Source of the DNA: Cellulomonas sp.
Lineage (GTDB): Bacteria; Actinomycetota; Actinomycetes; Actinomycetales; Cellulomonadaceae
DNA length: 37,931 nt
Direction of reading: 5' to 3'
Assembly: GCA_031178625.1 (NCBI GenBank)
Contig: JAPSIR010000007.1
Span: forward strand, 1 to 37,931
The notes under the pieces were generated by a model that ran no database searches, had not been told where the DNA came from, and saw only the letters and a program-made list of their open reading frames with translations. Below are positions 6,978-11,509 of the stretch, one piece after another; the first letter of the stretch is position 1; each line of letters opens with the position of its first letter. The position numbers and the translations under genes are program-made.

Positions 6978-7886
6978 TCACTCGTCGGCAGGCTCGTTCT
7001 TGCTGCGGATCACGAGGCGCGGGTCGGGCGTCCCGACGACCTCGGCGTCCTTGCCCTCGTAGTCGAACTGCCCGAGGAAGAACCGCATCGCGTTGATGCG
7101 GGCCCGCTTCTTGTCGTTGGAGCGGATGACCGTCCAGCGTGCGTACCGCTTGTCCGTCCGGCGGAACATCTCCTCCTTGGCCGCGGTGTAGTCCTCCCAG
7201 CGGTCCAGCGAGGCGAGGTCCATCGGCGACAGCTTCCACCGGCGCACCGGGTCGAGCTGGCGGATCGCGAACCGGGTGCGCTGCTCCGTGCGCGACACCG
7301 AGAACCACAGCTTCGTCAGGTGGACCCCGGACTCGACGAGCATCCGCTCGAACGCGGGCGCCTGCGCCATGAAGGTCGCGTACTCCTCGTCCGTGCAGAA
7401 CCCCATCACCCGCTCGACGCCGGCGCGGTTGTACCAGGACCGGTCGAACATGACGATCTCGCCGGCGGTGGGCAGGTGCTGGACGTACCGCTGGAAGTAC
7501 CACTGGCCGCGCTCGCGGTCGCTCGGCTTGGACAGCGCCACCACGCGGGCCGTGCGGGGGTTGAGGTGCTCGGTGAACCGCTTGATGGTGCCGCCCTTGC
7601 CGGCCGCGTCCCGCCCCTCGAAGAGGATCACCGCCCGCCGGTCGTTGTCCTCGAGCCAGTACTGGAACTTCAGCAGCTCGACCTGGAGCCGGTACTTCTC
7701 CACCTCGTACGCGTCCCGGTCCATGAGCTCGGCGTACGGGTAGCCCTCCTGCCACGTGTGGACGGGGTCGCCCTGCGGGTCGACCAGGTCCGGGTCGGGC
7801 GTGTGGCCGTCACGGACGGTGTAGCCGGTGTCGCGCAGGTACTCGATGTACTCGCGCAGGTCGCGCGGCGGGTCGGTGACGCCCAT
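6978..7886 (-). CDS. ppk2: Polyphosphate kinase 2
   Basis: VILFEGRDAAGKGGTIKRFTEHLNPR (Walker A), MFDRSWYNRAGVERVMGF (Walker B), PPK2 lid motifs. Confidence 0.95.
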   Translation of the reverse strand: MGVTDPPRDLREYIEYLRDTGYTVRDGHTPDPDLVDPQGDPVHTWQEGYPYAELMDRDAYEVEKYRLQVELLKFQYWLEDNDRRAVILFEGRDAAGKGGTIKRFTEHLNPRTARVVALSKPSDRERGQWYFQRYVQHLPTAGEIVMFDRSWYNRAGVERVMGFCTDEEYATFMAQAPAFERMLVESGVHLTKLWFSVSRTEQRTRFAIRQLDPVRRWKLSPMDLASLDRWEDYTAAKEEMFRRTDKRYARWTVIRSNDKKRARINAMRFFLGQFDYEGKDAEVVGTPDPRLVIRSKNEPADE

Positions 7887-8048: not shown

Positions 8049-8237
8049 TCAGCGCGGGTGGTCGGGCAGGGTCGCGGCGTCGACCAGGCCCCGGCGGACC
8101 GCACCGACGAGGCGGCGGGGCACGGCGACGGTGCGGCCGTCGACGGTGAGCGGCACGAGGTCGACCGGGGTCGCGACCCACTGGGCCCGCCGCGACCGCG
8201 TGCGGGAGCGGGAGGTCTTCCGCTTGGGGACGGCCAT
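8049..8237 (-). CDS. rpmF: Ribosomal protein L32 (cysteine-free)
   Basis: [20 protein letters not shown]..., 62 aa, no Cys; ATGA overlap with upstream gene. Confidence 0.9.
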
Positions 8238-8359
8238 CAGCCCTGCCTCGCCTTCCACCGCGGGTTGCGCTTGTTGATGACGTACGTCCTGCCGCGGCGG
8301 CGCACGACGATCGACCCGTCCTTCTTCTTCAGCGACGCGAGCGACGCGCGGACCTTCAC
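8237..8359 (-). CDS. rpmJ: Ribosomal protein L36 (cysteine-free)
   Basis: Manual translation: [43 protein letters not shown] start overlapping rpmE2 stop; absent from ORF list because it is short. Confidence 0.9.
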
Positions 8360-8616
8360 GACGTGGCCTCCGTCCCGCGCCCGTAGCGGCGGTTGAACTT
8401 CTCGACGCGGCCCGCGGTGTCCATGACGCGCGCGCTGCCGGTCCAGAACGGGTGGCTCGCGCTGGAGATCTCGACGTCGATGACGGGGTAGGTGTTCCCG
8501 TCCTCCCAGTCGACGGTCGCCGACGAGGTGGCGGTCGACCGCGTGAGGAACGCGAAGTCGGCGGACCTGTCGCGGAACACGACGGGCCGGTAGTCGGGGT
8601 GGATGCCCTTCTTCAC
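8356..8616 (-). CDS. rpmE2: Ribosomal protein L31 type B
   Basis: [28 protein letters not shown]...[18 protein letters not shown]...[14 protein letters not shown] start; no Cys. Confidence 0.93.
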
Positions 8617-8653: not shown

Positions 8654-8959
8654 TCACCAGCTGGACTTCGTGACGCCGGGCAGCTCCCCGCGCAGCGCCA
8701 TCTGGCGGAACCGCACACGGGACAGGCCGAACGTGCGCAGGTGGCCGCGCGGGCGGCCGTCGGCGAGGTCGCGGTTGCGCAGCCGTACAGGGCTGGCGTC
8801 GCGGGGCTGGCGGTGCAGCTCGGCACGCGCGGCGCGCCGCTCGTCCTCCGTGAGGTGCGGGTTCACGGAGGCGGCCCGCAGCTCGGCGCGGCGCGCGGCG
8901 TACCGGGCGACGACCTCGCGGCGCTGGGCGTCGCGCGCGATCTTGCTCTTCTTGGCCAT
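8654..8959 (-). CDS. rpsN: Ribosomal protein S14 (cysteine-free)
   Basis: [27 protein letters not shown]...[33 protein letters not shown]. Confidence 0.95.
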
Positions 8960-8961
8960 GC

Positions 8962-9135
8962 TCAGCGCTCCTCGCGGAAGTCGACGTGCCGCCGCACGAC
9001 CGGGTCGTACTTGCTGAGGACGAGACGGTCGGGCGTGTTCCGGCGGTTCTTGCGCGTCACGTACGTGAAGCCGGTGCCGGCGGTCGACCGGAGCTTGATC
9101 ACGGGGCGCAGGTCGGCCCGCTTGCCGCCGGCCAT
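8962..9135 (-). CDS. rpmG: Ribosomal protein L33 (cysteine-free)
   Basis: [61 protein letters not shown] overlap with rpmB stop. Confidence 0.95.
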
Positions 9136-9371
9136 CAGACCTTCTCCCCGCGACGCAGGATCTCGGCGACGACCGCGTCGATGCCGCGCCGGTCGATCAC
9201 CTTGATGCCGTCGGTCGAGACCCGCAGGCGCACGTGCCGCCCGAGGGAGGGCACCCAGTAGCGCTTGCGCTGGATATTCGGGTCGAAGCGGCGGGGCGTG
9301 CGGCGGTGCGAGTGCGAGACGGCGTTCCCGAAGGACGGCACCTTCCCGAGCACCTGGCAGTGACGGCTCAT
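9135..9371 (-). CDS. rpmB: Ribosomal protein L28
   Basis: [63 protein letters not shown]. Confidence 0.95.
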
Positions 9372-9388
9372 GGCGCTGCACGCTAGTT

Positions 9389-9401
9389 AATGATTATCGT
9401 T
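9389..9401. promoter_or_regulatory. Zur-box-like palindrome in divergent promoter
   Basis: AATGATTATCGTT (AAnGATnATCnTT, near-perfect dyad) between rpmB(-) and the COG0523-like gene (+). Confidence 0.75.
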
Positions 9402-9442
9402 CGCGTCAACGCCACCGACCCGTCACCACGAAGGAGGCCCCC

Positions 9443-10549
9443 GTGGGTCCTGCTCGCACGCCCGTCGTCGTCCTGTCCTCGATCGACCCGGTGGAGCGCG
9501 ACGCCGTCGTCGCCGGGCTCCTCGTCGACGCACCCCGCGTCGTCGCCGTCCGCCACGACATCCACGACGACGAGGACGGCGGCACGATCCGCCGGGTGGT
9601 CGCCGACGCGTCCGGCGTGGTCGAGGACGCGACCGTCCCGCTCGAGCACGCGTGCCTGTCCTGCGCCGTCCGGGAGGACGCCGTCCCGACGCTCGCGCGG
9701 CTCGCGGCCGACGGCCGGTGGGACGCCGTCGTCCTCGCGCTGCCCGTCAGCGCGGAGTCGCTCCCGGTGGTGCGCGCCCTGGGCTGGGCCATGCGCGCGG
9801 GGGAGCCGCTCGCCCGCCTGCGGGTGGCCGACGTCGTCGCGACCGTCGACCTCGCGACGTTCGAGCACGACCTGCTCGGCGACGACCTGCTCGACGAGCG
9901 CGGCCTCGGCCTCACGGACGACGACCGCCGCTCGGTCGGCGAGGCGCTCGCCGCCCAGGTCGCGCACGCCGACCTGGTCCTGGTCACCGGCGACGCGACC
10001 GACCACCCCGTCGCGTCCGACCTGCTCGACCACGTGCGTGCCGCCGACGGACGCCGGACCGACGGCCGCTACGGCGCGGGCGTGGCCGACCTCGTCGCGC
10101 GCGAGCACCGTCCGGCGACGGCCGAGCGCCGCCTGGACCCGGCGCACGTGGCGCCCGTCCCCGGGGCGCCGACCGCCCACGGCGTGTGGTCGCTCGACCT
10201 GCGCACGCGGCGCCCGTTCCACCCCGAGCGGCTGCTGCACGGCGTGCACCGGCTCGGCGAGGGCCCGCTGCGCAGCCGGGGCCGCTTCTGGGTGCCGAGC
10301 CGGCCGGACACGCTGTGCGTCTGGGACGGCGCCGGCGGCCAGCTGAGCATCGGCGCGGCCGGTCCGTGGCCGACGGAGCGGGCCGACACGCGGATCGTCG
10401 TCGTGGGCACGGGTGCCGAGGCGCCGGCGTTGCGCGAGGCGTTCGAGGACGTGCTGCTGACGCCGGCCGAGGTGCGCGCCGGCCTCACGGCGTGGCTCGG
10501 GCAGCCCGACGTGCTCGCGCCCTGGCTGGGGGAGCGCGCCGCTCGCTGA
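9443..10549 (+). CDS. COG0523/CobW-like protein lacking a recognisable P-loop (possible Mrf-like zinc-stress factor)
   Basis: CobW-type layout with CLSC motif (EHACLSCAVRED) and CobW_C-like C-terminus (RPFHPERLLHGVHRLGEGPLRSRGRFWVPSRPD...); N-terminus VVVLSSIDPVERDAVVAGLL has no GxxGxGK[ST]; RBS AAGGAG before GTG. Confidence 0.8.
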   Translation: MGPARTPVVVLSSIDPVERDAVVAGLLVDAPRVVAVRHDIHDDEDGGTIRRVVADASGVVEDATVPLEHACLSCAVREDAVPTLARLAADGRWDAVVLALPVSAESLPVVRALGWAMRAGEPLARLRVADVVATVDLATFEHDLLGDDLLDERGLGLTDDDRRSVGEALAAQVAHADLVLVTGDATDHPVASDLLDHVRAADGRRTDGRYGAGVADLVAREHRPATAERRLDPAHVAPVPGAPTAHGVWSLDLRTRRPFHPERLLHGVHRLGEGPLRSRGRFWVPSRPDTLCVWDGAGGQLSIGAAGPWPTERADTRIVVVGTGAEAPALREAFEDVLLTPAEVRAGLTAWLGQPDVLAPWLGERAAR

Positions 10550-10678: not shown

Positions 10679-11509
10679 ATGCGTCTGGTCAAGCAGCTCG
10701 GAGCCGTCGGAGCCGTCATGGTCGCGGGCGGCCTCGCCGTCGGTGCCGCCGAGAGGAGCTGGGCGCTGACCCTCGTCCTCGGGGTGGCGACCGCGGTGCT
10801 GGCGCTGCTCGCGTACGGCTGGGTGGTGCGCCGGACGGAGCGCCGCGAGCCCGTCGAGGTCGCCCTGCGCGGGGCCGGTGCGGCGGCCGCACGCGGCGTG
10901 GTGCTCGGGACCGCGATGTTCGTCGTCGTCGTCGCGGTGATCGCGGTGCTCGGTGGCTACCGCGTCGAGGGGTGGGGCTCGGTGACCGCCGCGGCCGGTC
11001 TGCTGGGGCTCGCGGTCGTCGCCTCTGTCACCGAGGAGGTCGTGTTCCGCGGCGTCCTGTTCCGGGTCGTCGAGGAGCGCGCGGGCACCTGGGCTGCGCT
11101 CGTGCTGACCTCCGTGCTGTTCGGGGCCATGCACCTGCTCAACCCGCACGCCACGGTGTGGGGCGCGGTCGCCATCGCCGTCGAGGCCGGCGGGATGCTG
11201 GGGGCGGCGTACGCGGCGACGCGCACGCTGTGGCTGCCCATCGGCCTGCACGCCGCCTGGAACTTCACGGCGAGCGGGATCTTCGGCACGGAGGTGTCCG
11301 GCGCGGGCGTCGCGTCGGGGCTGCTGGACGGCGTGACCTCCGGCCCGGTGCTCCTGTCGGGCGGCGCGTTCGGCCCGGAGGCGAGCCTGCCGGCCGTGCT
11401 GACCGGCATCGCCCTGACGGTGGTGTTCCTGCGGGTGGCGCACCGGCGCGGTCACCTCGTGGCACGCCGGCGGCGGACCGAGCCGACCGCGACGACCGCT
11501 ACGGTCTGA
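10679..11509 (+). CDS. CPBP family intramembrane metalloprotease
   Basis: Multiple TM segments; VTEEVVFRGVLFRVVEER and LFGAMHLLNPH motifs. Confidence 0.85.
   Translation: MRLVKQLGAVGAVMVAGGLAVGAAERSWALTLVLGVATAVLALLAYGWVVRRTERREPVEVALRGAGAAAARGVVLGTAMFVVVVAVIAVLGGYRVEGWGSVTAAAGLLGLAVVASVTEEVVFRGVLFRVVEERAGTWAALVLTSVLFGAMHLLNPHATVWGAVAIAVEAGGMLGAAYAATRTLWLPIGLHAAWNFTASGIFGTEVSGAGVASGLLDGVTSGPVLLSGGAFGPEASLPAVLTGIALTVVFLRVAHRRGHLVARRRRTEPTATTATV

Follow-up and report, generated by a model that had tools for sequence, protein, structure and literature searches.

A Mrf-like pseudo-GTPase gene divergent from a C-minus ribosomal protein operon in Cellulomonas sp.

Mrf and the COG0523 family

The closest described counterpart of the protein considered here is mycobacterial Mrf (MSMEG_6069/Rv0106; NF047431), a zinc-regulated protein whose zinc-bound form is degraded by the Clp system (2026 review, PMC13418864). 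According to the same review, Mrf promotes the binding of Mpy to C-minus ribosomes, Mpy being recruited to the C-minus 70S particle. Rv0106 of M. tuberculosis was described by Haas et al. in 2009 as lacking Walker A, with CXSC replacing CXCC (PMC2770081). In M. smegmatis, MSMEG_6066-6070 display the order rpsN-rpmG-rpmB/mrf/rpmE2, and MSMEG_6065-6070 show a more than 1000-fold increase in a zur mutant (PMC7174638).

Canonical COG0523 GTPases, including YjiA, YciC and the paralogues carrying GFLGAGKT and CICC, have the fold and the CobW_C domain in common with the Cellulomonas protein. They keep the P-loop (GxxGxGK[ST]), ExxG and CxCC, whereas the aligned Cellulomonas protein carries none of the three. 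The zinc metallochaperone ZigA (NF038288) resembles it in sequence and through a link to zinc starvation, but the protein scores 112.7 bits with the ZigA model, for a cut-off of 600.

The gene and its surroundings

The window, i.e. the whole stretch of Cellulomonas sp. DNA analysed (37,931 nucleotides), includes on its forward strand an ORF at positions 9443-10549 that encodes a Mrf-like P-loop-less COG0523 protein of 368 aa, assigned from profile matches, alignment, tree and structure model. The ORF starts with GTG, preceded by a GGAGG ribosome-binding site. A CobW_C domain (PF07683) is located at residues 249-338 (E-value 1.5e-18; 66.9 bits for a Pfam gathering score of 22), and the match to the Pfam cobW N-domain (1.2e-5) starts at profile position 45, i.e. 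past the P-loop. A CLSC motif, which alignment identifies as a derived form of the COG0523 CxCC, stands at residues 71-74 (9653-9664, forward strand). Thus, the CxxC (ACLSC) and the CobW_C-like tail claimed in the preliminary description are both present. Since C71 and C74 are invariant across 57 aligned homologues and the AlphaFold2 model has a pLDDT of 95.8 (pTM 0.93), the protein is not the product of a chance ORF.

On the opposite strand, six ribosomal protein genes are tightly ordered as rpmB-rpmG-rpsN-rpmE2-rpmJ2-rpmF. The first, rpmB (9135-9371), codes for a 78-aa L28 without CxxC (ORF list, profile match), and is followed by rpmG (8962-9135) for an L33 without cysteine (profile match, translation) and by rpsN (8654-8959) for the 101-aa C-minus form of S14 (ORF list, profile matches). 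Then come rpmE2 (8356-8616) for a type B L31 (profile matches), rpmJ2 (8237-8359), which starts with GTG, encodes a 40-aa type B L36 without cysteine and, being too short for the ORF list, was read from the translation, and rpmF (8049-8237) for an L32 without cysteine (ORF list, profile matches). No CxxC was found in the translated products of these six genes. The proposed divergence from a zinc-sparing ribosome operon is therefore borne out, with C-minus L28, L33, S14, L31B, L36B and L32. The C-minus operon is adjoined by a PPK2 polyphosphate kinase gene (6978-7886, reverse strand; TIGR03707, 376 bits), and a gene for a CPBP-type, Rce1-like intramembrane protease (10679-11509, forward strand) lies immediately downstream of the Mrf-like gene.

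The divergent promoter region contains a predicted Zur box, TAATGATTATCGTTCGCGTCA, at 9388-9408. Scanned with a matrix built from sites published for C. glutamicum (PMC2823685) together with the S. coelicolor consensus, the 37.9 kb window gives this site as its best match (12.6 bits), the next non-overlapping site reaching 1.5 bits. Among 140 upstream regions, the Zur-box match exceeds all shuffles in 127.

Absence of the P-loop and Walker B motifs

The P-loop GFLGAGKT of E. coli YjiA aligns to SSIDPVERD (SIDPVERD-like) in the Cellulomonas protein, and the YjiA Walker B VIECTG (ExxG) is replaced by VLALPV. The missing GxxGxGK[ST] noticed at first reading is thus genuine, and Walker B is gone too. 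Structure prediction, one of the checks proposed then, agrees: in the AlphaFold2 model strand 1 passes into helix 1 after only about two residues, at the usual place of the P-loop. YjiA is the sole confident Foldseek match (E-value 1.6e-14), with low TM-scores of 0.34-0.41 that probably stem from domain arrangement; a PDB sequence search gave no strong match, and fold search alone pointed to YjiA.

In the YjiA-based alignment, the P-loop and ExxG are missing from every clade member covering the region, the outer two cysteines of CxCC are kept, and the middle position is mostly S or T. Conservation of the loss, also proposed as a check, therefore extends to all examined homologues of the clade, and a pseudo-GTPase, as initially suggested, fits the evidence. 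Members of one family (f26; loci L187, L188, L190 and L191) are P-loop-less yet retain the full CxCC, so the losses of the P-loop and of the cysteine are separate steps.

Relationship to the Mrf family

NF047431 (MRF, the Mpy recruitment factor) is the best NCBIfam match of the protein (E-value 7e-43), in line with the comparison to Mrf suggested beforehand, but as its 147 bits stand beneath the curated cut-off of 375 bits, the protein is not strictly an Mrf equivalog. In two trees of 101 and 105 proteins, all P-loop-less rows fall on one side of a branch with an SH-aLRT of 100, and the split is recovered with the same support in a third tree of 100 rows omitting the P-loop/CxxC/Walker B region; these are quick, bootstrap-free trees in which the long YjiA branch makes the position of YjiA unsure. 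The P-loop-less side holds both the Cellulomonas protein and Mrf proteins scoring above the NF047431 cut-off. A private degeneration of the Cellulomonas gene is ruled out by all three trees as the origin of the P-loop loss.

The protein thus belongs to the Mrf-type P-loop-less COG0523 clade by tree grouping, by the absence of Walker A and ExxG, and by a two-cysteine CxxC; gene order adds the ribosomal protein context, and the Zur operator is predicted. It resembles Mrf in lacking the P-loop, in its CxSC, in its CobW-like C-terminal domain and in its divergence from rpmB-rpmG-rpsN with a Zur box (here predicted). It differs from Mrf in length (368 versus about 400 aa), in its score below the NF047431 cut-off and in sharing 24-33% identity with Mycobacteriales-type Mrf; judging from this score and identity, its function may differ from that of mycobacterial Mrf. 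The role analogous to Mrf put forward in the preliminary description fits the evidence as a Mrf-like role, given clade, gene order and predicted Zur control, but "analogous" was the wrong word since the proteins are homologous. Nor is this under-described biology, as was claimed: the P-loop loss is real but common to the whole Mrf family, Mrf itself included, and has been known since 2009 (PMC2770081). The name "GTPase MRF" of NF047431 is misleading, no member examined here having a P-loop.

Co-occurrence with the C-minus ribosome

The divergent rpmB/mrf layout recurs across the P-loop-less clade, and the rpsN-rpmG-rpmB/mrf/rpmE2 order known from M. smegmatis is repeated on Rhodococcus and Tsukamurella plasmids. 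The members on large plasmids of these genera (L219, L220) carry the annotation "GTP-binding protein". Among P-loop-less loci, 165 of 177 lie close to a matching ribosomal protein gene, against 8 of the 19 loci with a P-loop; these counts include many near-copies and unequal flanks. At loci L181, L183, L187 and L199, a P-loop CICC COG0523 paralogue is found within a few kb of the P-loop-less one.

Across 150 genomes of the bacterial family, both mrf and C-minus S14 occur in 82, neither in 61, S14 alone in 6, and mrf without C-minus S14 in 1, as a weak partial match (Fisher p 8e-34, uncorrected for kinship). Two of the six S14-alone genomes bear decayed mrf pieces (L221 in G039 and L222 in G137), in which the C-terminal part is left, the N-terminal part is gone or out of frame, and C-minus S14 is intact. 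The mrf product apparently depends on the C-minus ribosome, whereas C-minus genes can persist without mrf.

This co-occurrence and the predicted common operator, with mrf lacking C-minus S14 only as that weak match, would also suit a factor for C-minus ribosome assembly or exchange, loading zinc-free ribosomal proteins rather than acting in hibernation. Such a role is unlikely, as Mrf, the characterised relative, brings Mpy to C-minus 70S ribosomes (PMC13418864) and the six genomes with C-minus S14 and no intact mrf indicate that C-minus proteins are not strictly mrf-dependent. A GTP-independent zinc metallochaperone, to which COG0523 ancestry, the invariant CxxC, predicted Zur control and the ZigA model match (1.9e-32) could point, is a slightly poorer candidate still: the middle cysteine of CxCC and the nucleotide motifs are gone, a separate P-loop CICC paralogue in several relatives would do that job, and the distribution tracks C-minus ribosomal proteins, favouring a ribosome role over a metallochaperone role. 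An active GTPase with an atypical nucleotide site is highly improbable despite the retained COG0523 fold, the YjiA match at the top of the Foldseek results (1.6e-14) and the GTPase name in databases, because every examined clade member lacks P-loop and Walker B and just two residues run from strand 1 to helix 1 in the AlphaFold2 model.

A putative adaptor for ribosome hibernation

With its observed fold family, nucleotide-motif loss, clade, gene order and operator match, the product is, with reasonable likelihood, an actinobacterial Mrf-like pseudo-GTPase whose zinc-free form serves as hibernation-factor adaptor on C-minus ribosomes. As zinc falls, Zur would leave the shared operator, as predicted from the Zur box and the M. 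smegmatis regulon, and its release would allow zinc-free ribosomal proteins to be made on one side and the Mrf-like protein on the other. The latter, keeping the COG0523 fold without the usual GTP binding, would sense or bind zinc through its CxxC. We infer that it binds zinc and ribosomes and recruits HPF; its zinc-free form would most likely be an adaptor on C-minus ribosomes, helping HPF, the counterpart of Mpy, to bind and stabilise them. All 37 good genomes examined in the genus contain HPF, and one family search of the 79%-complete assembly carrying the window found none.

More tentatively, and with the balance slightly against it, a pseudo-GTPase that brings a hibernation factor to C-minus ribosomes in a zinc-gated manner could be widespread in Actinomycetes (Cellulomonas, Promicromonospora, Nocardioides and further families) rather than mycobacterium-specific, with a general HPF replacing Mpy. 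The gene itself is an ordinary further member, coding for a Mrf-like pseudo-GTPase that belongs to the zinc-sparing ribosome regulon. Its comparison with relatives suggests that the GTP site was lost as a single, old trait of the Mrf family and that this family extends far beyond mycobacteria, so harmless soil actinobacteria could be models for zinc-controlled ribosome hibernation.
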